Part shown: one piece after another, positions 35,470 through 50,227 of the stretch
Numbering within the stretch: position 1 is the stretch's first letter
Layout: every line of letters starts with the position of its first letter
Origin: Streptomyces sp. CB01201
GTDB lineage: Bacteria > Actinomycetota > Actinomycetes > Streptomycetales > Streptomycetaceae
Direction: 5' to 3'
Length of the DNA: 64,000 nt
Assembly (NCBI RefSeq): GCF_002803085.1
Contig: NZ_NNBJ01000008.1
Span: forward strand, 245,645 to 309,644
Notes under the pieces: model-generated
The model's database searches: none
The model's input: only the letters and a program-made list of their open reading frames with translations
What the model was told of the DNA's origin: nothing
Program-made: the position numbers and the translations under genes

Positions 35470-36434
35470 CGGGTGGCTCCGTCCGGGAGGACGACCACAC
35501 GGCCGGTGGTCGTGCCGTCGGCGACGCGCTGCACGGCGGCCGCGGCGTCCTTGAGCGGGACCCGCTCGCTGATGAGCGGCTTGATCGCGCCCTCGGCGGC
35601 GAGCCGGGTGAGCTGCTCGTGGCAGCGCGCGATCGAGGCCGGGTCCTTCTGCGCGTACAGGCCCCAGTGCAGTCCGACGATCGAGTAGTTCTTCACCAGG
35701 GCGTGGTTGAGCGCGGGCGCCGGAACGGATCCGCTCGCGAAGCCGACGATCACGATCCGCCCCTCGAAGGCGACGCACTTCGCGGACTTGGCGTAGGCGT
35801 CACCGCCGACCGGGTCGTAGATGACATCGGCGCCCCGCCCGCCGGTGGCCTCCTTCACGGCGGCCACGATGTCGTCGGTGCGCCGGTCGATGACCAGGTC
35901 GCAGCCCAACTCTCTTGCCACCGCGGCCTTTTGCTGTCCACCGACGACACCGATGACGCGGGCACCGGCGGCCTTGCCGAGCTGGACCGCCGCGCTGCCC
36001 ACTCCCCCGGCGGCGGCGTGCACCAGCAGTGTCTCGCCTTCCTGGAGGTGCGCCCTGCGGTGCAGTCCGAAGAAACCGGTCTGATAGCCGATGTGCAGGG
36101 CTGCGGCCTCGGCGTCGTCGAGCGCCTCGGGCGCGGGCAGCAGGGCCGCCTCGTCGGCGACGACGTACTCGGCCAGGCCGCCGTGCGGCAGCGCGGGGTT
36201 GGCGATCACCCGGCGGCCGTCCTCGGTCTCGCCGCAGATCTCCACGCCGGGAGTGAACGGCAGCGGCGGCCTGATCTGGTACTGGCCCCGGCAGAGCAGC
36301 GCGTCCGGGAAGTTGATGTTGGCGGCCCGCACCCTCAGCAGCAGCCGGCCCGGGCCCGGCTCGGGCCGGTCGACCTCGTCGAGCCGCATCACCTCGCCCG
36401 GCTCGCCGTTCTCGTGCACTCGCCATGCCTGCAT
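35466..36434 (-). CDS. Zinc-free MDR-type NADPH:quinone oxidoreductase-like protein
   Basis: A 322-residue medium-chain reductase. MQAWRVHENGEPGEVMRLDE starts it; the substrate-site NFPDALLCRGQYQIRPPLPF and the NADPH-binding loop LLVHAAAGGVGSAAVQLGKA near residues 136-155 are typical of the QOR-like group, which lacks zinc ligands. First gene of the operon with two acyl-CoA dehydrogenases, so it may reduce an enoyl-CoA or quinone in the same route. ATG 36434 has GGAGG six bases upstream. Confidence 0.85.
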   Translation of the reverse strand: MQAWRVHENGEPGEVMRLDEVDRPEPGPGRLLLRVRAANINFPDALLCRGQYQIRPPLPFTPGVEICGETEDGRRVIANPALPHGGLAEYVVADEAALLPAPEALDDAEAAALHIGYQTGFFGLHRRAHLQEGETLLVHAAAGGVGSAAVQLGKAAGARVIGVVGGQQKAAVARELGCDLVIDRRTDDIVAAVKEATGGRGADVIYDPVGGDAYAKSAKCVAFEGRIVIVGFASGSVPAPALNHALVKNYSIVGLHWGLYAQKDPASIARCHEQLTRLAAEGAIKPLISERVPLKDAAAAVQRVADGTTTGRVVVLPDGATR

Positions 36435-36471
36435 TCGGGGCCTCCACACGCCGGGCGCGATACGGCTGCGT

Positions 36472-36505
36472 ACCGCTGAGTACGTTCGCACCGCTGAGTA
36501 CGTTC
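36472..36505. repeat. Direct repeat of ACCGCTGAGTACGTTC
   Basis: The 16-mer ACCGCTGAGTACGTTC occurs twice, at 36472 and 36490, with an 18-bp period, between the quinone-reductase-like gene and the TetR-type palindrome. It may be a regulator site or a leader duplication. Confidence 0.6.
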
Positions 36506-36523
36506 CACTGCTCTCGGCATACT

Positions 36524-36535
36524 AAGCGGTCGCTT
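36524..36535. promoter_or_regulatory. TetR-type palindromic operator
   Basis: AAGCG-GT-CGCTT is a perfect palindrome in the divergent promoter between the leftward operon (start 36434) and the rightward SDR gene (36641). In actinobacteria, TetR regulators of acyl-CoA dehydrogenase genes often bind AGCG/CGCT sites; on the leftward strand it directly precedes TAGTAT, a possible -10 box. No tetR gene is in the flanking 5 kb. Confidence 0.5.
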
Positions 36536-36640
36536 GCCGCCGACGAAAGGGCTCGCCCGATCCGGCCCGGCCCGGGCGCGACACCGAATCCCTCGGACGC
36601 GGCCATGGTGGTTTGCGATGGCAGCCGGTACAGATACGCC

Positions 36641-37555
36641 ATGGATGCCGCCGCACCACCGCCACGGCCCCCGCACCCCGGGCTCCCCGCGCCTCCCCCG
36701 CTCGGCGCGTGCGCGCTGCCGCCCGGTACCTACGACGGCAGTGTCGTCCTGGTCACCGGGGGCGGGTCGGGGCTCGGCAAGGCGCTGGCCGCCGAGTTCG
36801 CGCGGCTCGGCGCCGACCTCGTCATCGTGAGCCGCTCGGCGGACCGGCTGAAGGCCGCGCAGGAAGAGCTGGCCGGGCTCGGCGGGCAGGTCGTGACCGC
36901 GGTGTGCGACATCAGGGAGCCGGAGCGGATCGCCGAGGTCTTCGACGCGGCCGAGTCCGCGCTGGGGCCGCCGTCCGTCCTGGTCAACAACGCGGCCGCC
37001 AACTTCCCTTCGCCCGCGGAGGACTTGTCGCCGAACGCCTGGCGCGCGGTCCTCGACATCACGCTGAGCGGCACGTGGTTCATGACCCGCGAGTTCGGCC
37101 GTCGGCATCTGGCGGCCGGTACGCCCGGCTCGGTGATCAACATCGGCGCCTCCTACGCCTGGACCGGCGGACCCGGCCATGCGCACTCCGCGGCGGCCAA
37201 GGCCGGCGTGCGCAACCTCGTCGAGACCCTGGCCGTGGAGTGGGGCCCGTACGGCATCCAGGTCAACGGTCTGGTGCCCGGCCTGATGCCGCACCCGGAT
37301 CTGCCCGAGTCGATCCGACGGGGTCTCGACCGGGCCGCCGACGAGGGCGAACTGGCCCTGCGGCAGCCAGCGTTGAGGGTCGGGCTGCCACGCGAACTCG
37401 GCTGGGCGGCCACCTTCCTCGCCTCCCCCTACGCCCGTTTCATCAGCGGTCACACCCTGGTGGTGGACGGGGCGAACTGGCAGCGGCGCGCCCTGGTGAC
37501 GCCGCCGGTGCTCAGCGTCCGCGAGCAGCTCGGCCGCGGGCCGTTCGGGGAGTGA
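36641..37555 (+). CDS. SDR-family 2,4-dienoyl-CoA reductase-like protein
   Basis: A 304-residue short-chain reductase. The Rossmann motif VVLVTGGGSGLGKALAAEFA is near residues 34-53; NNAAANF follows. At the active site, where most SDRs have YxxxK, the sequence reads HSAAAKAGVRNLVETLAVEW, so Tyr is replaced by Ser and Lys is kept, as in 2,4-dienoyl-CoA reductases. This suits the surrounding acyl-CoA genes. The start is unclear: ATG 36641 seems best; ATG 36605 would add 12 residues. Confidence 0.82.
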   Translation: MDAAAPPPRPPHPGLPAPPPLGACALPPGTYDGSVVLVTGGGSGLGKALAAEFARLGADLVIVSRSADRLKAAQEELAGLGGQVVTAVCDIREPERIAEVFDAAESALGPPSVLVNNAAANFPSPAEDLSPNAWRAVLDITLSGTWFMTREFGRRHLAAGTPGSVINIGASYAWTGGPGHAHSAAAKAGVRNLVETLAVEWGPYGIQVNGLVPGLMPHPDLPESIRRGLDRAADEGELALRQPALRVGLPRELGWAATFLASPYARFISGHTLVVDGANWQRRALVTPPVLSVREQLGRGPFGE

Positions 37556-37567
37556 CCCGGCCGCCGC

Positions 37568-38404
37568 TCACTTCCCCTCGAAGGCCGCAGGCCGCCGCCC
37601 GGCCTTGGCGGAGTAGCCCTCGCGGGCGTCCTCGGAGGTGAGCGTGAGGGCCGCCGCCAGCGCCGTACGGTCCAGAGCCTCGGCCAGGCCCGCGTCGGCG
37701 AAGGCGTCGATGCTCCGCTTGACGGCGCGGACCGCGAGGGGTGCGTTGCCCGCGATCTCCCCCGCGATCTCCATGGCGGTCGCCTCCAACTCACCTCCGT
37801 TCAACACCTGTTGGACTATTCCGATGCGTTCGGCGGTGGAGGCGTCGATGCGACGGCCGGTCAGCGCGAGGAGTTTGGCCCAGCCGGCGCCCGCGTCGCG
37901 GGCGATGCGCAGATCGCCGCCCGCGTCGACGGCCACCCCGATGCCGGTCTCCGGAAGGGCGAACACGGCGTCGTCGGCGGCGATCCGGATGTCGGCCATC
38001 AGAGCCAGCTCGAAGCCGAAGCCGAGGCAGTAGCCCTGGACCGCGGCGACGACGGGCTGGGGAAGGCGTGCGAAGGCCGCGAAGCGCTCATGGACCCAGC
38101 GGATGCCCTCGTAGTAGCGATGGGTGCGTTCGGCCGGCGAGCGTCCGGTGATCGCTCCGCCCGGGGCGGTGACGTCGATCCCGGCGCAGAAGGCGCGGCC
38201 CTCGGCACGGAGCAGCACGACCCTGATCGACTCGTCGAAGCGGATCCGGTCGGCGAGCAGCCCCAGTTGCCGACTGGCCTCCCAGCTCCATCCGTTCAGC
38301 TTGTCGGGCCGGCACAGGGTGAGGACGCCGATCCCCGTATCCGTGACATCGAGCCGGATCCGCTCCTCGCCCTCGGCGACCCGCCGGTCCAGGGTGTCGA
38401 TCAA
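37568..38404 (-). CDS. Enoyl-CoA hydratase/isomerase family protein
   Basis: A 278-residue crotonase-fold protein. CoA-oxyanion motifs: GRAFCAGIDVTAPGG (residues 68-82) and VVAAVQGYCLGFGFELALMA near residues 118-137, with the oxyanion glycine; the next segment, ALPETGIGVAVDAGGDLRIA, has Glu where hydratases usually place a catalytic acid. Substrate unknown; probably beta-oxidation-type. The start is TTG 38404, after AAGGGG about 8 bases upstream. It is 12 bp from the convergent SDR stop. Confidence 0.85.
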   Translation of the reverse strand: MIDTLDRRVAEGEERIRLDVTDTGIGVLTLCRPDKLNGWSWEASRQLGLLADRIRFDESIRVVLLRAEGRAFCAGIDVTAPGGAITGRSPAERTHRYYEGIRWVHERFAAFARLPQPVVAAVQGYCLGFGFELALMADIRIAADDAVFALPETGIGVAVDAGGDLRIARDAGAGWAKLLALTGRRIDASTAERIGIVQQVLNGGELEATAMEIAGEIAGNAPLAVRAVKRSIDAFADAGLAEALDRTALAAALTLTSEDAREGYSAKAGRRPAAFEGK

Positions 38405-38580
38405 CGCTCTGCCCCTTCCCTATGCTGACCAGCCGTCAGGTCCGTCGAGACTAGACGCTGTCCGCCGGATCGACCAGATACGGTCCGACCGCCTTCAACC
38501 CAGCGCCGACGGGGGCCCCTTGCGGTGATCGACGATCCCGGCCGCCGTACGGCCTCCGTGCAGAATGGAGCACCGCCGCC

Positions 38581-39066
38581 GTGAACAGCGCCCCCTCCCG
38601 CGTCCCCGATCTGTCGGACCGCCCGTACCGCCTCGTCGTCGAGCGCGAGATGCGGGCGGATCCGCACGCCATCTACCGTGCGTGGACGGAGCGGTTCGAC
38701 CTCTGGTTCGCGGCTCCCGGATCGGTCGCGATGACGCCCCGCGTCAACATGCCGTTCTTCTTCGAGACTGAATACGCGCCGGAGCCCGGCATGCCCACGA
38801 TTCGCGCCCCGCACTACGGCCGGTTCCTGCGCCTGGAATCCGACCGGCTGGTCGAACTCACCTGGGTAACCGGCCGCGGAGGCACGGCGGGGGCGGAGAC
38901 GGTGGTCACCGTCGAGCTCACACCGCGCGCCGCGGGGACGCTCCTGAGGCTCACTCAGGCGGGGTTCTACGACGAGACCGCCCGCGCGGCCACCGAAGCG
39001 GCCTGGAGAGACCTGGTACTACCGCATCAGGACGAGATCCTCGCCGGCCCGGCGGACACCGACTGA
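38581..39066 (+). CDS. SRPBCC (AHSA1-like) domain protein
   Basis: A 161-residue protein with a START/SRPBCC hydrophobic-cavity fold: LVVEREMRADPHAIYRAWTE near the N-terminus, FETEYAPEPG, HYGRFLRLESDRLVELTWVT near 78-98, and LLRLTQAGFYDETARAATEA near 121-140. AHSA1-like members are small binding or polyketide-related proteins of unknown role in bacteria. GTG 38581 follows ATGGAGC at moderate spacing. Confidence 0.8.
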   Translation: MNSAPSRVPDLSDRPYRLVVEREMRADPHAIYRAWTERFDLWFAAPGSVAMTPRVNMPFFFETEYAPEPGMPTIRAPHYGRFLRLESDRLVELTWVTGRGGTAGAETVVTVELTPRAAGTLLRLTQAGFYDETARAATEAAWRDLVLPHQDEILAGPADTD

Positions 39067-39157
39067 GGGACCTTTATGTGCCACACGCCCCTGACGCGGT
39101 GCCGTCCGGCGGGACGGGTGAGGCTCGGGCCCGGGTTTGGGCAAGCCCTTGCTCTTC

Positions 39158-39190
39158 GTTGGGCGCGTGTTCACCGGTTGACTCCACCGC
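39158..39190 (+). promoter_or_regulatory. Putative PHO box upstream of phospholipase-type gene
   Basis: Three 11-bp units, starting at 39158 (GTTGGGC), 39169 (GTTCACC) and 39180 (GACTCCA), with the middle one matching the PhoP unit consensus GTTCACC. The outer units are weaker. Phospholipase C-type genes are known PhoP targets in actinobacteria. Confidence 0.4.
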
Positions 39191-39266
39191 CCCACACCGA
39201 ACGAGGCCAGACTGACTGGCAGGTCCACGTCACTGGTCTCAACCGACAGCTCTGGAAGGGGCGTTC

Positions 39267-40694
39267 ATGGCCGAGTTGACACGACGCAGACTGCTTGGAT
39301 CGGCGGCCGGGGCGATCGGTGGTGCGGCGGCCCTCAGTCTGCTGCCGCCCAGCGTCCAGAAGGCCGTCGCCGCGGGGCCGCCCCGCGGCGGCTCACTGCG
39401 GGACATCAAGCACGTCGTCATGCTGATGCAGGAGAACCGTTCGTTCGACCACTACTTCGGCACGCTCTCGGGTGTGCGGGGGTTCAGCGATCCCCATGCC
39501 CTCAAACTGCCCAACGGGCGTTCGGTGTTCTACCAGCCCGACTCGGTGAACCCGCGCGGCTATCTGCTGCCGTTCCACCTGGACACGCGCAGCACGAGCG
39601 CGCAGGCCATCCCGTCCACGAGCCACGCCTGGTCGGTCCAGCACCAGGCCTGGAACGGCGGCAAGATGGACCAGTGGCTGCCCGCCCACCGCAAGGCGGA
39701 CGGCGCCAACGGGCCCTATGTCATGGGCTATTACACCCGTGAGGACATCCCGTTCCAGTTCGCGCTCGCGGAGACCTTCACGATCTGCGACAACTACTAC
39801 AGCTCGGTCTTCGGCCCCACCTGGCCCAACCGGCTGTACTGGATGACGGGCAGCATCGACCCCGGCGGCACCAAGGGCGGCCCGGTGCTCAACAACACCG
39901 CGCCCAAGCCGTACCGCTGGACGACGTACGCCGAGCGGCTCCAGGCCGCCGGGATCAGCTGGAAGGTCTACCAGCAGGACGACGACTACGGCTGCAACCT
40001 CCTTGAGCAGTTCCAGAGCTTCCGCGACGCCAAGCCGGGGTCCGCCCTGTACGAGCGCGGGGTGCGCCCGCAGCCCGTGGGCACCTTCGAGGACGATGCC
40101 GCTGCCGACCGGCTTCCGGCGGTCTCCTGGATCATGCCGACGAGCTACCAGTCGGAGCACCCGGACTATCTGCCGGCCGCCGGGGCCGACTTCGTGGCCC
40201 AGAAGATCGAGGCGATCGCGTCCAACCCGAAGGTGTGGGCGAAGACCGCGTTCATCCTCAACTACGACGAGAACGACGGCCTGTTCGACCATGTGGCCCC
40301 GCCGACTCCGAAGGCGGGCACCGCGGACGAGTTCGTCGGCGGGCTGCCCATCGGCGGCGGATTCCGGGTCCCGGCGATCATCGTGTCGCCGTGGACCGTG
40401 GGCGGCTGGGTGGCGAGCGAGGCCTTCGACCACACGTCCGCGCTGCGGTTCCTCGAACACTTCACCGGCGTCAAGGAGCCCAACATCAGCCAGTGGCGGC
40501 GCCGCACCTTCGGCGACCTGACGTCGGCGTTCCGGTTCAACAGCGGGCAGCCCAGGCCTCCTAGGCTGCCGGACGACACGGCGGAGCAACTGGCCGAGGC
40601 CAAGCGTGAGGTGGCGACGCTGCCGAAGCCGAAGCTGCCCGGTGCCGACCAGTCCTTCCCCAAGCAGGAACGCGGCCACCGGCCGCACGTGTAG
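39267..40694 (+). CDS. Tat-exported phospholipase C-type phosphoesterase
   Basis: A 475-residue protein. Tat signal RRRLLGSAAGAIGGAAALSL (residues 6-26), then a phosphoesterase (PF04185) domain: HVVMLMQENRSFDHYFGTL near residues 49-67, TICDNYYSSVFGPTWPNRLY near 172-191, VSWIMPTSYQSEHPD and LNYDENDGLFDHVAPPTP near 331-348, the metal-binding regions of the phospholipase C/acid phosphatase group. It probably cleaves a phospholipid or phosphodiester outside the cell. ATG 39267 has GGAAGGGG five bases upstream. Confidence 0.88.
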   Translation: MAELTRRRLLGSAAGAIGGAAALSLLPPSVQKAVAAGPPRGGSLRDIKHVVMLMQENRSFDHYFGTLSGVRGFSDPHALKLPNGRSVFYQPDSVNPRGYLLPFHLDTRSTSAQAIPSTSHAWSVQHQAWNGGKMDQWLPAHRKADGANGPYVMGYYTREDIPFQFALAETFTICDNYYSSVFGPTWPNRLYWMTGSIDPGGTKGGPVLNNTAPKPYRWTTYAERLQAAGISWKVYQQDDDYGCNLLEQFQSFRDAKPGSALYERGVRPQPVGTFEDDAAADRLPAVSWIMPTSYQSEHPDYLPAAGADFVAQKIEAIASNPKVWAKTAFILNYDENDGLFDHVAPPTPKAGTADEFVGGLPIGGGFRVPAIIVSPWTVGGWVASEAFDHTSALRFLEHFTGVKEPNISQWRRRTFGDLTSAFRFNSGQPRPPRLPDDTAEQLAEAKREVATLPKPKLPGADQSFPKQERGHRPHV

Positions 40695-40725
40695 CTCTCT
40701 CTGCGGGCGGAACCTCCAGCGCCTC

Positions 40726-40744
40726 CTGGGGGCTCCGCCCCCAG
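40726..40744 (+). terminator. Terminator hairpin within a Streptomyces intergenic repeat
   Basis: CTGGGGGC and GCCCCCAG form an 8-bp stem with a 3-base loop, 31 bp after the phosphoesterase stop. Confidence 0.65.
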
Positions 40745-40860
40745 ACCCCCGTGCGCGCCTGAAGGGCGCTCGTCCTCAAACGCCGGACGGGCTGAAACAC
40801 CCGATGCGGGCCGACGCCAGTGCCGCCCAGGGGCGCGGGGAACTGTGCGAGAAGCGACCA
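40726..40860. repeat. Copy of a repeat element common between Streptomyces genes
   Basis: The parts are a GGGGGCTCCGCCCCC hairpin, CGTCCTCAAACGCCGGACG with GGGCTG after it, and GGGGCGCGGGGAACTGTGCG near 40831. I know these three from many Streptomyces intergenic regions, in the same order. It is not a gene or transposon. Confidence 0.6.
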
Positions 40861-40889
40861 CCGTCCGCGGGTGGGAGCAGAGTCCGCAC

Positions 40890-41495
40890 TCAGGACGTCG
40901 GGCTCGGCGACGGGGTCGGGGATCCCGAACGGCGTTGCGGGAGAAGAGCCTTGCAGACCTGGAGGGCCGACGCCGACTTGGGGTCCGCCGTGTTGAGGCC
41001 GCGCAGGCCGCCACCTCCCGCACCCGGCGACGCCGAGGGCAGAACGACCCCGTGATCCTTGAGGCAACTGGTGAACGCCTTCATCGCGGTGCTGTTCGCG
41101 CCGCTCCCGCCCCGCCCGTTGAACTGCGGCCGCTCGCTCGCACAGGCCTGTACGGCCTGGCGCTGGGCCGGGTCCGCCGAGGCCCCGCCGCCGAAGCCGC
41201 CGAACCCGCCGCCGCCCCCGCCAGGGCGCCGGCCCGCCCCCGTGGGCCGCCCGCTGCCGCTCGGGCGCGGCGCCATCGTGACGCCGTGCTGGGCCAGGCA
41301 CTGGCGGTAGGCATCCATGCCCTTGGCGGTGGCGGACGCGGACGCCGTGGGCTTCGCCTGGGCGCTGCTGCTCGCGCCCGAGGACGAGCAGGCCGCGAGC
41401 AGCAGGCCGCACGCCGCGACGGCGGCGGCGGACACCGCGGCCCGTGCCGCGACGGCGGCGCGCGCGGTGGCGGGCCTGCGCTTGGTCCAGGTCAT
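40890..41495 (-). CDS. Secreted lipoprotein with two Cys/His-Gly repeats
   Basis: A 201-residue lipoprotein: signal peptide with lipobox LLAACS near residues 31-36, a Ser/Ala linker, then two related helices, MDAYRQCLAQHGVTMAP (near 60) and MKAFTSCLKDHGVVLP (near 140), each with Cys and HG, joined by a glycine-rich GGGGGGFGGFGGG run and a third pair of cysteines (AVQACASE and LQVCKALL). The C-terminus is Ser/Pro rich. Divergent from the adaptor-ABC-two-component operon at 41773, sharing its regulatory region. ATG 41495 has GAGGAGA eight bases upstream. Function unknown, perhaps a partner or sensor for the exporter. Confidence 0.78.
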   Translation of the reverse strand: MTWTKRRPATARAAVAARAAVSAAAVAACGLLLAACSSSGASSSAQAKPTASASATAKGMDAYRQCLAQHGVTMAPRPSGSGRPTGAGRRPGGGGGGFGGFGGGASADPAQRQAVQACASERPQFNGRGGSGANSTAMKAFTSCLKDHGVVLPSASPGAGGGGLRGLNTADPKSASALQVCKALLPQRRSGSPTPSPSPTS

Positions 41496-41602
41496 GTCCG
41501 GTGTCTCCTCGGTACGTTGGGCGGGCGAAGGCCTCGCTGATGTGTACGCCGTCGGCGACCCATGACTGAACCGCACGAGGGTGGGCGCCTCCGGGGGAAG
41601 GG

Positions 41603-41618
41603 CTGGGAGTTCCCTGGG
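41603..41618 (-). promoter_or_regulatory. 11-bp-phased CTGGG half-sites facing lipoprotein gene
   Basis: CTGGGAGTTCCCTGGG holds two CTGGG units 11 bp apart and is a perfect reverse complement of 41711-41726. It lies 108 bp upstream of the lipoprotein start. Two-turn direct repeats fit an OmpR-family response regulator. Confidence 0.5.
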
Positions 41619-41710
41619 CGCCGGGGTCCACTTGGGGCCCTCGGGGCGCGCGGGGTGGTGCGATACGTACCGTCACGTCCGCCATGCGAAGTTTCACCCG
41701 CATACGCGTT

Positions 41711-41737
41711 CCCAGGGAACTCCCAGAAAGCTCCCAG
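41711..41737 (+). promoter_or_regulatory. Three 11-bp-phased CCCAG half-sites before exporter operon
   Basis: CCCAG begins at 41711, 41722 and 41733, each 11 bp apart, ending 36 bp before the ATG of the adaptor. This is the spacing of direct-repeat sites for OmpR/PhoB-type regulators, and a regulator of that class is encoded by the same operon at 45887. Confidence 0.55.
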
Positions 41738-41772
41738 GGGTTCCAAAGTGCGGGCGGCCAGGATCCGCCGTC

Positions 41773-43143
41773 ATGAAGGTGCTCCCACGACGGCGCAGAG
41801 CCGTCCTGATCAACTCGGTGCTCGGTGTGGCCGTCCTGGCCGGTGCGGGCGGCGCCTACGCCGCGGTGACCAGCCATGACAGCACGCCCGCGCGGACCGG
41901 TGAGAAGACCGTCACGGTCACCAAGGGCACGGTCCTCGCCACCGTGTCCGGCTCCGGGGCACTGGCCTCGCCGAGCGACGCGGGGGTGAACTTCACCACC
42001 GGCGGCAAGCTCACCGAGGTCGACGTCAAGCCGGGCGACAAGGTCTCCCGGGGCCAGGTCCTCGGCAAGGTCGACGCGACCGCGGCCAGGGAGACTCTGG
42101 CTCAGGACGAGGCGACCCTGACGGCCGCGCAGGCCAACCTCACCAAAGCGCAGGAGGGACAGGCCAGTTCGAGCACGACGAGCGGTTCCGCCGGCGGCTC
42201 CTCGACGCGCGGCGGCACCAACGCCGCGCCCGCCCCCGCCGCGACCCCGACGGTCGACCCCGCGCAGCTCGCCCAGGCCGAGGCCCAGCTCACCCAGGCG
42301 CAGAACGCGGTGGACGCCGCCCAGCGCGCGGTGGACGGCACCACCCTGACCGCCCCGGTCGCCGGGACGGTCGCGTCCGTGTCGGCGAAGACGGGCGACA
42401 CCGTCAGCGGCACCGGCGGCAACGGCACGAGCGGAGGCAGCGGGGGTTCGGGAGGCGGCTCCAACTCGGCTTCCAGCAGCACGAGTTCGGCCTCCTCCTC
42501 AAGTTTGTCCGGGTTCGTGGTGCTCACCAACCCGTCCGGCATGCAGGTCACCGCCAACTTCTCCGAGGCCGACGCGCTCAAGGTGAAGCCCGGGCAGGCG
42601 GCGACCGTCACCCTCAACGCCGAGTCCGACAAGGTCCTCAACGCCAAGGTCGTTTCGGTGAGTTCACTGCCCGTGAGCAGCGGCTCGGGGTCGGGCGGAG
42701 GCGGGGGCGGCAACAGCGGCTCCGGGAGCGCGGTGCAGTACGCGGCCACCCTCGCCATCACCAGCCCCACCACCGATCTGCGCACCGGCCTGAGCGCGAG
42801 CATCCAGGTCGTCACGGGCGAGGCCTCAGGCGCCCTTTCGGTGCCGACCGGCGCGGTGACCGGCACCGGCGCCAACCGGACGGTGACCGTGGTCAAGGCG
42901 GACGGCACCACGGAGCGCACCCCGGTCACGGTGGGCCTGGAGGGCGACAGCTCCGACCAGATTCTCAGTGGGCTCAGCGAGGGCGAGAAGGTCCAGTTGG
43001 CCAGTGTCTCCGCGACCGGCCAGGGCGGGTTCCCGAGCGGCGCCTTCCCCGGCGGCTTCGGCGGCGGCGCCGCCGGACGCACCCGCGGGGGTGCCACGGG
43101 CGGCGGCGCTCGCGTCGGCGGCGGCGGGGGTGGCCGCGGATGA
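41773..43143 (+). CDS. Membrane-fusion-type adaptor (HlyD/MacA-like) of ABC exporter
   Basis: A 456-residue protein with one N-terminal membrane helix (AVLINSVLGVAVLAGAGGAY), a biotinyl-lipoyl half-motif SGSGALASPSD and GGKLTEVDVKPGDKVSRGQV (residues 70-100), a helical stretch ALTAAQANLTKAQ-like around 105-130, a low-complexity Ser/Gly/Ala part, a second lipoyl half TLTAPVAGTVASVSAKTGDT near 190-210, and a beta-barrel. The helical hairpin is short and is interrupted by the low-complexity part. The last 40 residues are glycine rich. It is an extracytoplasmic adaptor to the MacB-type pump next door. ATG 41773 has AGGATC about 8 bases upstream. Confidence 0.85.
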   Translation: MKVLPRRRRAVLINSVLGVAVLAGAGGAYAAVTSHDSTPARTGEKTVTVTKGTVLATVSGSGALASPSDAGVNFTTGGKLTEVDVKPGDKVSRGQVLGKVDATAARETLAQDEATLTAAQANLTKAQEGQASSSTTSGSAGGSSTRGGTNAAPAPAATPTVDPAQLAQAEAQLTQAQNAVDAAQRAVDGTTLTAPVAGTVASVSAKTGDTVSGTGGNGTSGGSGGSGGGSNSASSSTSSASSSSLSGFVVLTNPSGMQVTANFSEADALKVKPGQAATVTLNAESDKVLNAKVVSVSSLPVSSGSGSGGGGGGNSGSGSAVQYAATLAITSPTTDLRTGLSASIQVVTGEASGALSVPTGAVTGTGANRTVTVVKADGTTERTPVTVGLEGDSSDQILSGLSEGEKVQLASVSATGQGGFPSGAFPGGFGGGAAGRTRGGATGGGARVGGGGGGRG

Positions 43144-43991
43144 CGCCGCTCCGGTGGTCGCGCAGGACCGCCGCACTGCCCGAATCCGCGCCCGAGAAGG
43201 GGCCCTGGGCCCCGGCGCCGGTGATCGAGGTGCGCTCGCTGATCAAGACCTACGGCCACGGCGACGCCGCCGTGCACGCGCTCAGCGGGCCCGTGGACCC
43301 GGTGAGCGGTGCGGCCCTCGGGGTCGAACTGGTCGTCCAGCAGGGCGACTTCGTGGCCGTGATGGGGAGTTCGGGCTCCGGCAAGTCGACCCTGATGAAC
43401 ATCCTGGGCTGCCTCGACGTGCCGACCTCGGGGCGGTACCTGCTCGACGGCATCCATGTCGGCGGCCTCGACGAACGCCAGCTTTCGCTGGTGCGCAACC
43501 GCAAGATCGGCTTCGTGTTCCAGTCGTTCAACCTGGTGCCGCGCACCCCGGCCCTCGCCCAGGTGGAACTGCCGCTGGCGTACGCGGGGGTCAAGCCGGC
43601 CGAGCGGCGCCGGCGGGCCGAGGCCGCACTGACCCTGGTGGGCCTCGCCGACCGGATGGACCACCGGCCCAACGAGCTCTCCGGCGGCCAGCAGCAGCGC
43701 GTGGCCGTGGCCCGTGCCCTGGTCACCGCGCCCGCGATGCTGCTCGCGGACGAGCCCACCGGAAACCTCGACAGCCACAGCACCGAGGAGGTGCTCGCGG
43801 TCGTGGACCGGCTGAACGCGGCGGGCCGCACCGTCGTCCTGATCACCCACGAGGACGAGGTGGCCCGGCACGCCAAGCGGGTGGTCCGCCTGGTCGACGG
43901 AAGGATCGTCGACGATGTGCGCCAGGCCCCCGTGGACGGACCGCCGCCCGCGATGCGCGACGACGCGTCCCTGGTCGGAGGCGGCCGGTGA
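43140..43991 (+). CDS. MacB/LolD-type ABC ATPase
   Basis: A 283-residue ATPase. Walker A is MGSSGSGKSTLMNILGCLD near residues 78-96, Q loop KIGFVFQSFNLVP, signature ELSGGQQQRVAVARAL, Walker B AMLLADEPTGNLD, H-loop VVLITHEDEVARHAKRV. An N-terminal extension of about 28 residues precedes the domain, and residues 45-65 carry a short insertion (SGPVDPVSGAALGVEL) not usual in LolD-type ATPases. ATG overlap with the adaptor stop (43140-43143) indicates coupling. Confidence 0.88.
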   Translation: MTPLRWSRRTAALPESAPEKGPWAPAPVIEVRSLIKTYGHGDAAVHALSGPVDPVSGAALGVELVVQQGDFVAVMGSSGSGKSTLMNILGCLDVPTSGRYLLDGIHVGGLDERQLSLVRNRKIGFVFQSFNLVPRTPALAQVELPLAYAGVKPAERRRRAEAALTLVGLADRMDHRPNELSGGQQQRVAVARALVTAPAMLLADEPTGNLDSHSTEEVLAVVDRLNAAGRTVVLITHEDEVARHAKRVVRLVDGRIVDDVRQAPVDGPPPAMRDDASLVGGGR

Positions 43992-45199
43992 GCCTGTTCC
44001 AGACGCTGCGCTTCGCCTTCGGCGGCCTCGCGGCGAACAAGGTGCGCTCGGCCCTCACGATGCTCGGGGTGCTGATCGGCGTGGCCGCGGTCATCGTGCT
44101 CCTGGCCGTGGGCAACGGCTCCTCGCAGGCCGTGAAGGACTCGATCGAGAAGCTCGGCACCAACGCGCTCACGGTGTCCTCGGGCGGCGGCTTCGGCGGC
44201 TCGCGCTCGGCGACCGCCACCAAGCCGCTGACCGTGGACGACGCCCGCGCGCTCGCCGACCCGGCGTCCGCCCCGCACATCGAGTCGGTCGCCCCGGAGA
44301 CCACCACCTCGCAGACCGCCCTGTACCAGGGCACCTCGCACACGGTCAGCCAGGTCGTCGGCACCTACCCGGCGTACTTCAAGGCGTCCAACAGCAAGGT
44401 CACCAAGGGCGACTACTTCAGCGACGACGACGTACTCGGCGCGCGCAAGGTGGCCGTGATCGGCTCGACCACGGCCACCGATGTGTTCGGCACCGCGGAC
44501 CCGGTCGGCAGGAAGATGACGCTCGGGGGCACGCCGTTCACGGTGGTCGGGGTGCTCGCCACCAAGGGCGGCACCGGGTTCCAGGACCCGGACGACGTCG
44601 TGGTCGCACCGCTGCCGACCGTGCAGAACGCCTTCACCGGGTTCGGTTCGCTCGGCCAGATCCTCGTCGAGGCCAAGTCGGCCGACGCCACCACACAGGC
44701 GCAGGACGAGATCACCACGGTGCTGATGGGGCGGCACGGCATCAAGGACCCGACCGCGCTCGACTTCCGGGTCAGCAGTCAGGCCTCCCTGCTCACCACC
44801 CAGGCGGACACCAACAAGACGTTCACGGTGCTGCTGGGCGCGGTGGCGGCGATCTCGCTGCTCGTCGGCGGGATCGGCATCACCAACATCATGCTGGTGA
44901 CGGTGACCGAGCGGACCCGGGAGATCGGCATCCGCAAGGCGATCGGAGCGCCGCGCGGTGTCATCCTCGGGCAGTTCCTCGCCGAGTCGACCCTGCTCTC
45001 GCTGATCGGCGGCGGGCTGGGCGTCGCGGCGGGTCTGATCGGCTCGCACTTCACGATCGTCGGCATCAAGCCGGTGATCATCCCCGAATCGGTCGTCGGA
45101 GCCTTCGCGATCGCGGTGGCCATCGGGCTGTTCTTCGGCGGCTATCCCGCCAACCGGGCCGCGAGCCTGCGGCCCATCGAAGCGCTGCGGCACGAATGA
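43988..45199 (+). CDS. MacB-type ABC permease
   Basis: A 403-residue permease with the FtsX/MacB layout: helix 1 SALTMLGVLIGVAAVIVLL near residues 22-40, a large extracytoplasmic domain (about 45-275), and three C-terminal helices starting with VLLGAVAAISLLVGGIGITN, then VTVTERTREIGIRKAIGAPR and the tail PANRAASLRPIEALRHE. Such mechanotransmission-type transporters move peptides, lipids or antibiotics out. GTG 43988 overlaps the stop of the ATPase. Confidence 0.88.
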   Translation: MSLFQTLRFAFGGLAANKVRSALTMLGVLIGVAAVIVLLAVGNGSSQAVKDSIEKLGTNALTVSSGGGFGGSRSATATKPLTVDDARALADPASAPHIESVAPETTTSQTALYQGTSHTVSQVVGTYPAYFKASNSKVTKGDYFSDDDVLGARKVAVIGSTTATDVFGTADPVGRKMTLGGTPFTVVGVLATKGGTGFQDPDDVVVAPLPTVQNAFTGFGSLGQILVEAKSADATTQAQDEITTVLMGRHGIKDPTALDFRVSSQASLLTTQADTNKTFTVLLGAVAAISLLVGGIGITNIMLVTVTERTREIGIRKAIGAPRGVILGQFLAESTLLSLIGGGLGVAAGLIGSHFTIVGIKPVIIPESVVGAFAIAVAIGLFFGGYPANRAASLRPIEALRHE

Positions 45200-45846
45200 A
45201 CCCCATGTACGGACAGGGAGAGGACATGTTCGGCAACGCCGAGATCTTGGAGAACGCCGGCCCCGCGCGCGCCGGCGATCCGGAGGACATCCTCGCCGAG
45301 CCACCGGACGCCCGGGACATCTCGGCCGAGCTCAACGCGCCACCGAGGCCTCAACTGCCATGGCTGACAATGCTGTTGTCCGGTGGTCTGGTGGCGGGCC
45401 TGGCGTTCACCGGGGGCGCGCTGGTGGAGAAGAACCAGAACCAGGGGTCGTCCTCGGCACAGCGCACCCCGGCCACGGCAGCCCGAGGCGGCACCGCGGG
45501 GAGCGCCCAGCGCCAGGGCTTCGGCGCCGGGCAAGGCGGCCAGAGCGGCCAGAGCGGCCAACGCCAGGGTGCCGGTGCGGGCCCGGGCGCGGCGGGTGGA
45601 CTGACCATCGGTACGGTGAAGCTCGTCGACGGCAGCACCATCTACGTCACCGACACCCAGGGCAACGTCGTCAAGGTCACCACGGCCGGCAGCACCCAGG
45701 TCACCGAGGCCAGGAGCGGCAAGGTGTCCGATCTGCAACCGGGCCAGACGGTGACCGTGCGCGGCAGCCAGAACGCCTCCGGGGACGTCGCGGCGACCAC
45801 CGTCACCCAGGGCGGCGCGAGCGGTTTCGGCGGGGGCCGGGGCTGA
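45196..45846 (+). CDS. Membrane-anchored Gly/Gln-rich protein with OB-like C-terminus
   Basis: A 216-residue protein with a cytoplasmic acidic N-terminus, one membrane helix (WLTMLLSGGLVAGLAFTGGA, residues 56-75), a low-complexity Gln/Gly linker, and a beta-rich domain (residues 135-205) starting IGTVKLVDGSTIYVTDTQGN and ending GQTVTVRGSQ, of the DUF5666 sort. The C-terminus GFGGGRG mirrors the Gly-rich ends of the adaptor. Overlaps the permease stop by 4 bases, so it is probably a subunit of the same exporter assembly. Confidence 0.75.
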   Translation: MNPMYGQGEDMFGNAEILENAGPARAGDPEDILAEPPDARDISAELNAPPRPQLPWLTMLLSGGLVAGLAFTGGALVEKNQNQGSSSAQRTPATAARGGTAGSAQRQGFGAGQGGQSGQSGQRQGAGAGPGAAGGLTIGTVKLVDGSTIYVTDTQGNVVKVTTAGSTQVTEARSGKVSDLQPGQTVTVRGSQNASGDVAATTVTQGGASGFGGGRG

Positions 45847-45886
45847 CCGCACCCCCACCGCCCACGCCGGTACAAGGAGGAACCCG

Positions 45887-46621
45887 ATGGCCCCGACGGA
45901 CGCGGCCGTGCCCGAGGCGAGCCTGCTCGTCGTCGACGACGAGCCCAACATCCGGGAGCTGCTCTCGGCTTCGCTGCGCTTCGTCGGCTTCAAGGTCGTC
46001 TCGGCGGCCACCGGGGCCGACGCGCTGGCGGCCGTCGCCAAGGAACGTCCCGACCTGGTGGTGCTCGATGTGATGCTGCCCGACATGACGGGCTTCGCCG
46101 TGGTGCGCAGGCTCCGCGAGGAGCCAGGCGCGGGACCGGGCCCGGACCATCTGCCGGTGCTCTTCCTCACCGCGAAGGACGGCGTCGACGACAAGATCAG
46201 CGGACTGACGGCGGGCGGCGACGACTACGTCACCAAGCCGTTCAGCCTGGAGGAGCTGATCGCCCGCATCCGTGCGATCCTGCGCCGCACCGGCGGCCCG
46301 AGCGGCGAGGGCCGTCTGGTGGCGGGCGACCTGGAACTCGACCCGGTGGGCCACCAGGTGCTGCGTGGCGGGCGGCCGGTCTCGCTCTCCCCCACCGAGT
46401 TCAAGCTGCTCGCCTATCTGATGGCCAACGCCGACCGGGTCGTGTCCAAGCCGCAGATCCTCGACCACGTGTGGGCGTACGACTTCGGCGGGGACCTCAG
46501 CATCGTCGAGTCGTACATCTCGTACGTGCGCCGCAAGGTGGACTCGGGTGCGGACGGGGCGCCCAAGCTCATCCACACCGTGCGCGGCATCGGCTATGTG
46601 CTGCGCCGGCCGCAGTCCTGA
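45887..46621 (+). CDS. OmpR-family response regulator
   Basis: A 244-residue response regulator. Receiver: LLVVDDEPNIRELLSASLRF, the phospho-acceptor aspartate in DLVVLDVMLPDMTGFA (near residue 60), and the lysine in GDDYVTKPFSLEEL; winged-helix effector: LSPTEFKLLAYLMANADRVVSK, split here as LSPTEFKLLAYLMANA, and VRRKVDSGADGAPKLIHTVR, then GIGYVLRRP. AAGGAGG is 7 bases upstream of the ATG. The operon position and the 11-bp-phased sites at 41603-41618 and 41711-41737 suggest that it controls the exporter. Confidence 0.92.
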   Translation: MAPTDAAVPEASLLVVDDEPNIRELLSASLRFVGFKVVSAATGADALAAVAKERPDLVVLDVMLPDMTGFAVVRRLREEPGAGPGPDHLPVLFLTAKDGVDDKISGLTAGGDDYVTKPFSLEELIARIRAILRRTGGPSGEGRLVAGDLELDPVGHQVLRGGRPVSLSPTEFKLLAYLMANADRVVSKPQILDHVWAYDFGGDLSIVESYISYVRRKVDSGADGAPKLIHTVRGIGYVLRRPQS

Positions 46622-46633
46622 GGTGTCCGGCCG

Positions 46634-48130
46634 ATGCTGAGGTACCTCCGGGCGCGGCTGGGCCGGCTGCCGCGCCGCTTCGCCGCGCTGTCGCTGCGCT
46701 CGCGGCTCGTGCTGCTCTCCATGGCCCTGGTGGCGCTCGGGCTCACGGTCAGCGACACCGTCGTGCTCAGCTCCGTGCGCGGCCAGTTGGTGCAGCGGGT
46801 GGACCAGCAGCTGAACCGGTTCGGGGACTCGGTGGCCCACCGGGTCGGTGTCGAGGGCACCCCCGCGTCAAGGGGCGGCCGGACGGGGGGCGGCCGGGCC
46901 TGGCTGCCCAGTCAGTACGTCCTCGCGTTCGCCGCCGACGACGGGAAGGTCACCGAGCAGTTCCGCCAGCCGGTCGCGGCGGCCGACCCGCGACCCACCT
47001 GGCCCGTGATGGACGCGGCGGCGCTCCGGGCCCACCTCGGCAAGCCTTTCGAGGTGCCCAGCGATCACGGGGGCGGCAGCTGGCGGATGCTGATCGTGCC
47101 GGTGGACAGCGGCGACCCGGCGCTGCCCGCCGGGGTGATCGTGGCGGCGCCGCTTGAGGAGGTCTCCTCCACGGTCGACCATCTGGCCACGGCCTTCCAG
47201 CTCATCGGGGTCGTCGTCGCGCTGCTCCTCGGGGTGGCGGGCTGGTTCGCGGTACGGGCCGGCCTCCGTCCGTTGCGCCGCATCGAGGCGACGGCGGCGG
47301 AGATCGCGGCCGGCCGGCCGCTCTCGCACCGGATGCCGGACGCCTCTCCGCACACCGAGGCCGGGCGGCTCACCAGCGCGCTCAACGGGATGCTCGCCCA
47401 GCTCGAATCGGCGTTCGCGGCGCGCGCCGAGTCGGAGGGGCAGATGCGCCGCTTCGTCGCGGACGCCAGCCACGAGCTGCGCACCCCGCTGGCCGGGATC
47501 CGCGGCTTCGCCGAGCTGTACCGGATGGGCGCGCTCCCCGACGAGGCGGATGTGAAGCGCACCATGGCCCGCATCGAGAGCGAGGCGGTACGGCTCGGCG
47601 GCCTGGTCGAGGATCTGCTCACCCTGGTCCGCATGGACGAGCAGCGCCCGCTCCAGCTCGCCCCGATGGATCTGCGCACCCTCGCGGTGGACGCCCTGCA
47701 CGACACCCGGGCCCTGGATCCGACCCGCGAGGTCACCCTGACCGGGCCCGGCGGGGCGGGCGGGCCCGGTCCCGCCCCGGTGCTCGGCGACGAGGCGCGG
47801 CTGCGCCAGGTGGTCGCGAACCTCGTCGGCAACGCCGTCGCGCACACGCCGTCGGGAACCGCGGTACGGATCGGAGTGGGCGCGACCGGGGGCCACTGCC
47901 TCATCGAGGTCGCCGACACGGGCCCGGGTCTGGCGCCCGAGCAGGCGGCCCGCGTCTTCGAGCGCTTCTACCGTGTGGACGCCTCGCGCAGCCGGCAGAC
48001 CGGGGGCGGCGCGGGCCTGGGCCTCGCCATCGCCTCGGCCCTGGTGCAGGCCCATCACGGGCAGGTGGAGCTGGTGACCGCGCCCGGCGAGGGCGCGGTG
48101 TTCCGGGTAGTGCTGCCCACCGTGGCCTGA
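46634..48130 (+). CDS. HAMP-domain sensor histidine kinase
   Basis: A 498-residue kinase with two membrane helices (about 32-55 and 188-210) around a 130-residue external sensor, then a HAMP domain (about 210-262). The kinase core has the H box VADASHELRTPLAGIRG (near residue 280), N box NLVGNAVAHTPSG, G1 VADTGPGL, F box FERFYRVDASRS and G2 GGGAGLGLAIA. It follows the response regulator by 12 bp. The sensed signal is unknown; candidates are the exporter substrate or cell-envelope stress. Confidence 0.92.
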   Translation: MLRYLRARLGRLPRRFAALSLRSRLVLLSMALVALGLTVSDTVVLSSVRGQLVQRVDQQLNRFGDSVAHRVGVEGTPASRGGRTGGGRAWLPSQYVLAFAADDGKVTEQFRQPVAAADPRPTWPVMDAAALRAHLGKPFEVPSDHGGGSWRMLIVPVDSGDPALPAGVIVAAPLEEVSSTVDHLATAFQLIGVVVALLLGVAGWFAVRAGLRPLRRIEATAAEIAAGRPLSHRMPDASPHTEAGRLTSALNGMLAQLESAFAARAESEGQMRRFVADASHELRTPLAGIRGFAELYRMGALPDEADVKRTMARIESEAVRLGGLVEDLLTLVRMDEQRPLQLAPMDLRTLAVDALHDTRALDPTREVTLTGPGGAGGPGPAPVLGDEARLRQVVANLVGNAVAHTPSGTAVRIGVGATGGHCLIEVADTGPGLAPEQAARVFERFYRVDASRSRQTGGGAGLGLAIASALVQAHHGQVELVTAPGEGAVFRVVLPTVA

Positions 48131-48216
48131 ACGGGCGGCCGGACGAGGAGGCGGGGGGGACCGGCACCGGCCCACTCCCCCGGACCGGTCCGAGTGCGGG
48201 CGGGGCCAAGGACTCC

Positions 48217-48222
48217 TAGCGT
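48217..48222 (+). promoter_or_regulatory. Possible leaderless promoter (-10 TAGCGT)
   Basis: TAGCGT is exactly 6 bases before ATG 48229, and no ribosome site precedes the ATG. This spacing is typical of leaderless transcripts in actinobacteria. The -35 region is not clear. Confidence 0.4.
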
Positions 48223-48228
48223 GGGTTC

Positions 48229-49389
48229 ATGATCCGGTTCGAGCAGGTCAGCAAGGTCTACCCGGACGGCACGCGTGCCGTCGACGACCTGTCCTTCGAG
48301 GTCGCGGAGGGCGAACTGGTCACCCTGGTCGGACCGTCCGGCTGCGGCAAGACGACCACGATGATGATGGTGAACCGGCTCATCGAGCCCACCTCGGGCC
48401 GCATCCTGGTCGACGGGGAGGACATCGCCACGCTGGACCCGGTGAAGCTGCGCCGCCGGATCGGCTACGTCATCCAGCAGGTCGGCCTCTTCCCGCACCG
48501 CACGATCCTCGACAACACCGCGACGGTCCCGGCGCTGGTCGGCTGGAAGCGGGCGAAGGCCCGGGCACGGGCGGCCGAGCTGCTCGACCTGGTGGGGCTC
48601 GACCCGTCGACGTACGGGACGCGCTACCCCGCCCAGCTCTCGGGCGGCCAGCGCCAACGGGTGGGCGTGGCAAGGGCGTTGGCGGCGGACCCGCCGGTGC
48701 TTCTGATGGACGAGCCGTTCGGTGCGGTCGACCCGGTGGTGCGCGAGCGCCTCCAGAACGAGTTCCTGAGCCTTCAGGCGACCGTGCGCAAGACGGTCCT
48801 GCTGGTCACCCATGACATCGAGGAGGCCGTCCGGATGGGTGACCGCATGGCGGTGTACGGCTCGGGGCGCATCGAGCAGTTCGACACTCCGGCGTCGGTC
48901 CTGGGCGCGCCCGCCACCGCCTATGTGGCCCAATTCGTGGGCGCGGACCGGGGGTTGAAGCGCCTGTCGGTCACGACGGTGGAGCCGGACGACCTGGAGC
49001 AGCCGCCGGTCGTGCGGCTCGACGAGCCCGCGGCGGTGGCCGCCGCCCGGCTGCGCGGCGAGGACGCGCGCTGGGCGGTGGTGCTCAACGAGGGCGGCGA
49101 ACTGCACGGCTGGGTCGCCACCGACGAGCTGTCCCTGGCGGGGGCGGGTTCGGTGGCGGACCTGGCCCGGCGCATGGAGGCGTGGGTGCCGGTCGGGGCG
49201 CCGCTCAAGCAGGCGTTCAGCGAGATGCTCCAGTACGACGCGGGCTGGGTCGCCGTGGTGGACGGCGCCCGTTTCCTCGGCGTCCTGACCCCCGCGAAGC
49301 TGCACGAGGCGCTGCGCCGCTCGGTGGACGCGGACGCGCTGGGCGTGGAGCGGACCGAGGTCGACTTCGACTCGATCGCGGACGCGTGA
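48229..49389 (+). CDS. OpuCA-type ATPase of compatible-solute ABC importer
   Basis: A 386-residue ATPase of the OpuCA/ProV family. Walker A is GPSGCGKTTTMMMVNRLIE near residue 35-53, Q loop IGYVIQQVGLFPH, signature QLSGGQRQRVGVARALAADP, Walker B LLMDEPFGAVDP, H-loop LLVTHDIEEAVRMGDRM. The last 130 residues contain CBS-like segments (WAVVLNEGGELHGWVATDEL, AGWVAVVDGARFLGVLTPAK) that usually sense ionic strength. Its permeases and binding protein lie on the other strand at 50245-52531. Confidence 0.87.
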   Translation: MIRFEQVSKVYPDGTRAVDDLSFEVAEGELVTLVGPSGCGKTTTMMMVNRLIEPTSGRILVDGEDIATLDPVKLRRRIGYVIQQVGLFPHRTILDNTATVPALVGWKRAKARARAAELLDLVGLDPSTYGTRYPAQLSGGQRQRVGVARALAADPPVLLMDEPFGAVDPVVRERLQNEFLSLQATVRKTVLLVTHDIEEAVRMGDRMAVYGSGRIEQFDTPASVLGAPATAYVAQFVGADRGLKRLSVTTVEPDDLEQPPVVRLDEPAAVAAARLRGEDARWAVVLNEGGELHGWVATDELSLAGAGSVADLARRMEAWVPVGAPLKQAFSEMLQYDAGWVAVVDGARFLGVLTPAKLHEALRRSVDADALGVERTEVDFDSIADA

Positions 49390-49534
49390 GCGCCGTACCA
49401 CGCCGCCGACGCCAACTCGCCTCAGCATGAGCAAAGTTGGGCCCGCCCGCCCCTTACGTTCCACGGGACGCGTGGTTACCATCCGGTAGCCCTCGTACGG
49501 GGCATTCCCGCACCCCACCCCCGCTGGAGCCGCC

Positions 49535-50227
49535 ATGCGCCTCGCACCCGCCGCCGCCGCGCTCGCTCTGCTCGCCGGCACGATCGCCCTCGCCCCCACG
49601 GCCACCGCCGCCCAGCCGGCCCCGGCGGCCGCCGCTCCCGTCCCCGTCGTCTTCGTGCACGGCCGCAATGCCGATCCCGGTGTCTGGGGCACCATGAAGG
49701 ACCGCTTCCAGCAGGCCGGCTACCCCGCGGGCGACCTCTTCGCGTGGGGCTACGACTCCAGCCGCTCGACCAACGAGGTTTTGGCCGGCCAGTTCGCCGC
49801 GTACGTCGACTCCGTGCGCGCCCAGACCGGCTCCGCGCAGGTCGACATCGTCGCGCACAGCCAGGGCAGCCTGCCCACCCGCTGGTACGTGAAGTTCGGC
49901 GGCGGCACCAACGTGGTGCGGCACTGGGTGTCCCTCGGCGGGCCCAACCACGGGACGAACCTGGCCTGGGCCTGTGCGATCTGGGACCAGGGCTGCCGGG
50001 ACATGACTCCGAACTCGTACGTGGAGAGCCATCTTGCGAGCGGCAGCGAGACCCCCGGCCCGACGAAGTACGCCACGTTCTGGTCGGACTGCGACGAGTT
50101 CATCCTGCCCAACAGCAGTGTCCCGCTGTCCGGCGCGGTCAACACCGACGCCGGCTGCCTCGCCCACAACGATCTCCTGACCGACGCGCCCACCGCTCAG
50201 GGAGTACTCAACTTCCTGAAGCGGTAG
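49535..50227 (+). CDS. Secreted lipase (Lipase_2 family)
   Basis: A 230-residue exported alpha/beta hydrolase. Signal peptide (residues 1-27: LAPAAAALALLAGTIALAP), then VPVVFVHGRNADPGVWGTMK (oxyanion region near residues 36-55), the nucleophile elbow VDIVAHSQGSLPTRW with Ser near residue 110, and the His candidate in CLAHNDLL near 210. This is the class 2/Lipase_2 (PF01674) family, which acts on short to medium acyl esters. It sits between the two halves of the OpuC-type importer, convergent with the binding-protein gene. Confidence 0.87.
   Translation: MRLAPAAAALALLAGTIALAPTATAAQPAPAAAAPVPVVFVHGRNADPGVWGTMKDRFQQAGYPAGDLFAWGYDSSRSTNEVLAGQFAAYVDSVRAQTGSAQVDIVAHSQGSLPTRWYVKFGGGTNVVRHWVSLGGPNHGTNLAWACAIWDQGCRDMTPNSYVESHLASGSETPGPTKYATFWSDCDEFILPNSSVPLSGAVNTDAGCLAHNDLLTDAPTAQGVLNFLKR

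Follow-up and report, generated by a model that had tools for sequence, protein, structure and literature searches.

The question raised by this locus is why two sets of phased half-sites lie in mirror image in the intergenic DNA (41496-41772) between a divergent putative lipoprotein gene and an exporter-like operon, and what binds them. Here the window is the whole stretch of DNA that was analysed, 64,000 nucleotides of Streptomyces sp. CB01201, and positions are those of the window. The first-pass annotation had described three CCCAG at 11-bp steps towards the adaptor operon, two CTGGG at the same step towards the lipoprotein gene, and a perfect 16-bp inverted repeat formed by the two sets. 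All three were recovered: CCCAG starts at 41711, 41722 and 41733, CTGGG starts at 41603 and 41614, and the 16-nt arms 41603-41618 and 41711-41726 are 100% complementary and 92 nt apart. The right array (41710-41737, forward strand) consists of three TCCCAG half-sites at 41710-41715, 41721-41726 and 41732-41737. The left array (41592-41619, reverse strand) consists of GCCCAG (41614-41619), TCCCAG (41603-41608) and a degenerate third half-site, CCCCCG (41592-41597), which was identified through comparison with relatives. A linker of 90 bp (41620-41709, no strand) separates the arrays, and the half-site consensus was refined to (C)TCCCAG.

In order to estimate how often such arrangements arise by chance, we made 20,000 shuffled versions of 41505-41772 that preserve its dinucleotides. 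No shuffle contained three CCCAG at 11-bp steps, and a chance origin of the triple was rejected; two CCCAG appeared in 6 shuffles and two CTGGG in 41. The perfect 16-bp inverted repeat arose in 214 of the 20,000, so the repeat alone is roughly a 1% event in GC-rich DNA and the phased arrays are the improbable part. Across the 8.76-Mb genome the pair CCCAG-N6-CCCAG is not enriched (42 occurrences versus 62 for the reversed control). The overlapping CCCAG triple occurs at a single place, which is this one, and exact TCCCAG-N5-TCCCAG occurs twice, both times at the right array's locus. A larger regulon in this genome was considered and dropped, with 37 sites at one mismatch or fewer compared to 32 for the reversed control and thus no clear enrichment. 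A known structured RNA was likewise rejected, Rfam giving no match at the gathering threshold across 36000-50000.

The adaptor most likely starts at the ATG at 41773 and the lipoprotein at the ATG at 41495. The operon, on the forward strand, begins with a periplasmic-adaptor-type protein of the RND_mfp, MacA-like kind (41773-43143; TIGR01730, 121.5 bits, cutoff 94.9). It continues with a MacB/LolD-like ABC ATPase (43140-43991; PF00005, the NCBIfam matches, among those listed, lying under their cutoffs), a MacB-type permease with MacB_PCD and FtsX domains (43988-45199), a putative membrane protein that matches DUF5666 weakly (45196-45846; 26.3 bits against a cutoff of 27), an OmpR-family response regulator (45887-46621) and a sensor histidine kinase with HAMP, HisKA and HATPase_c domains (46634-48130). 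With the starts chosen, neighbouring genes overlap or are 12-40 bp apart. The NCBIfam equivalog cutoffs for MacAB were missed (92 of 342 for MacA, and 235.5 for the ATPase and 232 for the permease of 966 for MacB, a model of the fused protein, while ATPase and permease are split here), and we name the exporter proteins MacB-like only. The tripartite organization resembles MacAB-type exporters in having an adaptor, a MacB_PCD/FtsX permease and a MacB-like ATPase, and differs from them in the split ATPase and permease, the DUF5666-like protein and the two-component pair within the operon. The divergent putative lipoprotein (40890-41495, reverse strand, 201 aa) is an open reading frame with AGGAG upstream and a lipobox-like LAAC, and gave no match in Pfam or NCBIfam; it carries repeated CL..HGV cysteine/histidine motifs. 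Near it lies a phosphoesterase-family gene (39267-40694; PF04185, 380 bits), whose product is possibly a secreted phospholipase C-like enzyme.

Loss of the sites from related genomes with the same operon had been named beforehand as a finding that would speak against the annotation; the arrays are retained in relatives carrying the operon, in nearly all loci examined within the same bacterial family. A search of 394 genomes of the family found the permease in 129, belonging to 10 of 17 genera; upstream regions were fetched for part of these 129, and an adaptor search gave 54 loci from named genomes. Altogether 136 loci were entered, 132 with an alignable adaptor start, and 107 of the upstreams were distinct (L081, L083, L166 and L215, in which no adaptor start was found, and 25 duplicates were left out, and L084 was not entered). 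Four loci lacking a permease match (L062, L067, L070, L075) were dropped, so that 103 of the 107 stand in a quick FastTree tree. Both arms scored at least 9 of 12 in 95 of these 103; the weak-arm rows (L082, L168, L176, L177, L187, L197, L198, L199) were left out of phase scoring. Half-site columns rank with the best conserved of this region in 58 lipoprotein-type loci; in the right array the values are 0.90-1.0 for the first two half-sites and 0.79-0.98 for the third. No array was seen in the more distant Catenulispora relatives L081 and L082. Three genomes of genus g3 (G165, G191, G207) have two nearby copies of the exporter locus each (L165/L198, L173/L197, L186/L199), and the copy adjoining hisC has a weak left array.

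The 11-bp spacing had been read as that of OmpR-type regulators, with the gene at 45887 as the candidate. Its product proved to be an OmpR/PhoB-family protein of the same operon whose best solved relative, M. tuberculosis PhoP (288 bits), uses the same register, and the interpretation of the arrays as OmpR-type sites appears well supported. As in PhoP-type operators, the arrays are direct repeats in 11-bp register (three and two exact CCCAG cores), and the putative cognate regulator has both a receiver domain (PF00072 Response_reg) and a winged-helix domain (PF00486 Trans_reg_C). According to the accessible part of PMC4832192, PhoP forms a tandem dimer on TCACAGC-N4-TCACAGC, with 7-bp motifs and a strict 4-bp spacer, binds DNA of three and four motifs more tightly than DNA of two, and contacts A6 of the half-site through water by N212. 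Of the six base-contacting residues reported there, E215, S216, Y217 and Y220 are identical in the regulator, V213 is I, a conservative change, and N212 is S. The half-site here is TCCCAG, unlike the TCACAG of PhoP, and the base that differs is A6. The available portions of PMC4832192 and PMC3413638 describe for PhoP no pair of mirror-image arrays in kept phase such as the one found here.

On these grounds we consider it highly probable that the operon-encoded regulator is the ligand of both arrays. Another regulator could bind them and leave this one a bystander, as three matches to the regulator at E<=1e-60 in the window's genome mean that close paralogues exist. We regard this as very improbable in view of the match to PhoP in register and half-site, of the four identical residues, and also of the distribution of the motif: a strict triple pattern occurs in 27 of the 129 permease-bearing genomes versus 4 of the 265 others (Fisher test), a pattern that the window's own array fails, its first half-site being preceded by T. 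Judged by coordinates, 4 of the 27 have the strict triple at a place other than the locus, and in G230, one of the four permease-less genomes, the sequence resembles the locus array. Related arrays also accompany 7 of the first 18 paralogous regulator loci taken from Streptomyces (L020, L021, L023-L027; L020 and L025 encode an MMPL transporter), which again argues against a bystander. The other 11 (L013-L019, L022, L028-L030) gave no convincing array, with a single one-mismatch pair at the far end of L013 and weak mirrored pairs (19 of 24) in L017 and L028; L242-L244 gave none either, and L241 and L028 are one and the same place.

A hexamer resembling a -10 element stands at equal columns on both sides, 49-54 counted from the first half-site, with the consensus cAGGAT to the right and TTCAGT to the left in the 58 lipoprotein-type loci, and the key positions of the right hexamer are highly conserved (A 0.97, T 0.98). 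In the window these are CAGGAT at 41759-41764 (forward strand) and TTCAGT at 41565-41570 (reverse strand). We infer that they are the -10 elements of the adaptor-operon and lipoprotein promoters, respectively. CAGGAT ends 8 nt before the ATG, so the adaptor mRNA would probably be leaderless; the AGGA within it may alternatively be read as a Shine-Dalgarno sequence. The gap from the end of the third half-site to the box is 21 nt on both sides, which suggests that the regulator stands in for a -35 element. The phosphorylated regulator would occupy the three (C)TCCCAG half-sites of each array in head-to-tail order, in 11-bp register, and replace the -35 element at both promoters. It would thereby activate the adaptor-exporter-regulator-kinase operon, giving positive feedback, and the lipoprotein gene as a second, divergent promoter. 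Such activation is, in our judgement, probable.

The distance between the arrays bears on whether they act together. If oligomers on both arrays touched each other, or a common partner, over about 6-12 helical turns, probably in a small loop, the linker would be expected to gain or lose whole turns and seldom fractions. The left-to-right distance modulo 11 is 7-10 in 90 of the 95 scored loci, so the sites are mostly kept at separations that differ by whole turns; the remaining five give 0, 1 or 5, and have strong arms (L044, L046, L053 (110), L063 (111), L225 (115)). L198 and L199, left out of the scoring for a weak arm, also gave off-phase best pairs. Among the 63 strong-arm loci the most frequent distances are 107 (19 loci), 118 (13) and 96 (8), and the others are 85, 97, 98, 106, 108-111, 115, 119, 129 and 130. 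A left -10-like element was recognisable in 50 of the 63, which form the anchored set, and in every one of the 50 it stands 38 bp from the left array. The right array lies 44-46 bp from the ATG in 48 of 50, and 34 and 35 bp in the other two, where another pair scored best. With both modules rigid in this way, the length differences sit in the linker, which measures 68, 79, 80, 89-91, 93, 94, 98, 101, 102, 112 or 113 bp. A shift of register inside the arrays that mimics insertions or deletions is ruled out in the anchored loci by these constant distances, though it may still act in the Kitasatospora-type loci, which lack the left -10-like element.

Reconstruction along the tree for 49 anchored loci gave 13 linker changes, seven of them of at least 5 bp (+10, +11, -22, +12, -22, +13, +11). 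In this strictest set none of the seven deviates by more than 2 bp from a multiple of 11, and a periodicity this strong arose in 84 of 20,000 random sets. A looser set of 59 loci gave 19 changes, ten of them large (+23, +12, +11, -22, +11, +12, -22, -10, -9, -9); all ten lie no more than 2 bp from a multiple of 11, and one random set in 20,000 reached this periodicity, although some steps, including part of the apparent -9 steps in Kitasatospora-type loci, may be register choice. The strength of the periodicity thus depends on the set and is weaker in the strict one; observed and random values were scored on one common grid. The 5' leader of the lipoprotein gene served as a control, with starts set by pattern, which adds noise (one outlier at 434 bp). 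On 39 anchored loci it gave 30 changes, 22 of them large, without periodicity (R 0.17 at 11 bp), and on 43 loci, of which four lack strong arms, 34 changes, 25 of them large (R 0.44). Restricted to the 39 control loci, the linker reconstruction gave ten changes (+2, +8, -22, +12, +1, -3, -3, -1, -4, -13). The large ones are +8, -22, +12 and -13, one of the four being 3 bp off, which indicates that the reconstruction is sensitive to the rows entered; the change list depends on tree and rows, and related sequences are not independent.

The linker length thus appears to evolve mostly by whole helical turns, which suggests that proteins bound at both sets touch. The complex across both arrays would probably be a small DNA loop. 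The same arrangement could also consist of two independent PhoP-type operators, one per promoter and without contact, the 11-bp steps then reflecting mutational bias or constraints that have nothing to do with a complex. Each module is self-complete in having an array and a -10-like element, off-phase loci exist, the change list varies with the rows entered, and the hisC-adjacent loci L197-L199 have a weak left arm. On the same loci, however, the leader takes up insertions and deletions freely without periodicity. The linker also offers no phased half-sites for slippage to use: a continuous run of half-sites through it was rejected, the score showing no rise at 11-bp offsets. We hold independent operators to be a serious possibility and still the less probable one, also in view of the Kitasatospora-type and paralogous loci described below.

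Kitasatospora-type loci are the 33 loci closest to reference L057. The left array is kept in all 33, with 11-12 of 12 matches. A lipobox search, which misses some true lipoprotein cases elsewhere, found a divergent lipoprotein-like ORF in one of them; in 19, the same strand carries hisC, whose end lies 258-361 bp upstream. No column exceeds 0.58 in these 33 loci where an outward -10 would stand (columns 49-54 beyond the left array). That the left array persists where no outward -10 is conserved favours its having a role at the adaptor promoter and argues against independent operators. Counter to such a role, L197-L199, which adjoin hisC in another genus, have a left arm of only 8 of 12, while L062, also adjoining hisC, keeps both arrays. 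The same loci bear on a third explanation, in which the phase is needed for coupling of the promoters by two RNA polymerases or by the torsion of divergent transcription, without contact between regulators. The lipoprotein-type loci would suit it, having two promoter-like modules of the same architecture facing apart. The 33 loci without a conserved outward -10 nevertheless keep the linker within a few bp (78-82 in the register used), although these loci are also closer kin, and we consider coupling of this kind improbable. Absence of the regulator from Kitasatospora was rejected: it was not seen in many of the fetched stretches, yet all 14 genomes that were searched encode it (76-80% identity). 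Coordinates suggest a position 11-20 kb downstream for L054, L057, L059 and L061, where we take the contig to be the same. A conserved near-palindrome, GTTCGGCCAAC, lies just inside the left array of Kitasatospora-type loci such as L057, and is perhaps the site of a second regulator.

The phase recurs in the paralogous loci, which is a further argument against independent operators. A mirrored arm is present in 17 of the 19 paralogous loci scanned (uncorrected shuffle p<=0.05), L248 and L259 showing no significant one and L251 being too short for the scan. Their array distances are 62, 73, 74, 83, 85, 86, 87 or 94 bp, that is, 6-10 modulo 11. No random set in 20,000 was as periodic when all 17 distances were entered, a value that overstates the case because the loci are related, and 118 of 20,000 were when the eight distinct values were used.

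For contact between the arrays itself we see an even chance, and the whole explanation, with the arrays as operators of the operon's regulator, two activated promoters and contact across the arrays, is in our view somewhat more probable than its negation. A broader form is tentative and falls slightly short of an even chance: a PhoP-like group of actinobacterial regulators may use paired mirror-image arrays that have to lie on one face of the helix, with oligomers joining over about 60-130 bp and making a single switch of two divergent promoters or, in Kitasatospora, of one promoter and a distant operator.

Descriptions of OmpR/PhoB regulators mostly give one short direct-repeat site per promoter. 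At ompF of E. coli, OmpR uses proximal sites and a distal F4 site, and a loop has been proposed; an OmpR-family regulator with proximal and distal sites is also what we propose here. A precedent for a loop that depends on the face of the helix is ThnR, a LysR-type activator of the divergent promoters PB and PC with sites on one helix face. In the accessible part of PMC4834489, its joint complex was broken by insertions of 4 and 6 bp and allowed by insertions of 11 and 33 bp, cooperation survived mutation of a -10 box, and PB lost cooperative expression even with whole-turn insertions. The present system likewise has two putative divergent promoters, with sites that would lie on one helix face; it differs from what is described there in that ThnR is of LysR type with a 55-bp spacing, whereas here the regulator is of the OmpR family and natural variation takes the place of experiment. 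This variation, in 107 distinct upstreams and separately in the paralogous loci, points to contact between distant inverted arrays. If this is true, evolution has repeatedly performed the whole-turn insertion experiment. The loci provide a ready series of separations, from about 6 to 12 turns, for probing dependence on helical phase, and they tie a concrete half-site to a putative regulator in an exporter system. Our literature searches for the motif or the system returned nothing usable and no account of the control of this exporter system.

Two further observations concern the motif elsewhere. TCCCAG pairs in Actinacidiphila-like genomes were rejected as a regulon and not counted; seven stretches were read, and some adjoin integrase-like ORFs. 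Recurrent AGTCCCAG-N5-TCCCAG-like repeats (L264:2717, L264:5460, L268:2985, L262:2770, L265:3132), some of them adjoining integrase-like ORFs, are possibly ends or attachment sites of mobile elements. A core paralogue of the regulator has TCTCAG-N5-TCACAG near its own gene start in both genomes looked at (L239:5282, L240:5820), possibly an autoregulatory PhoP-like site.
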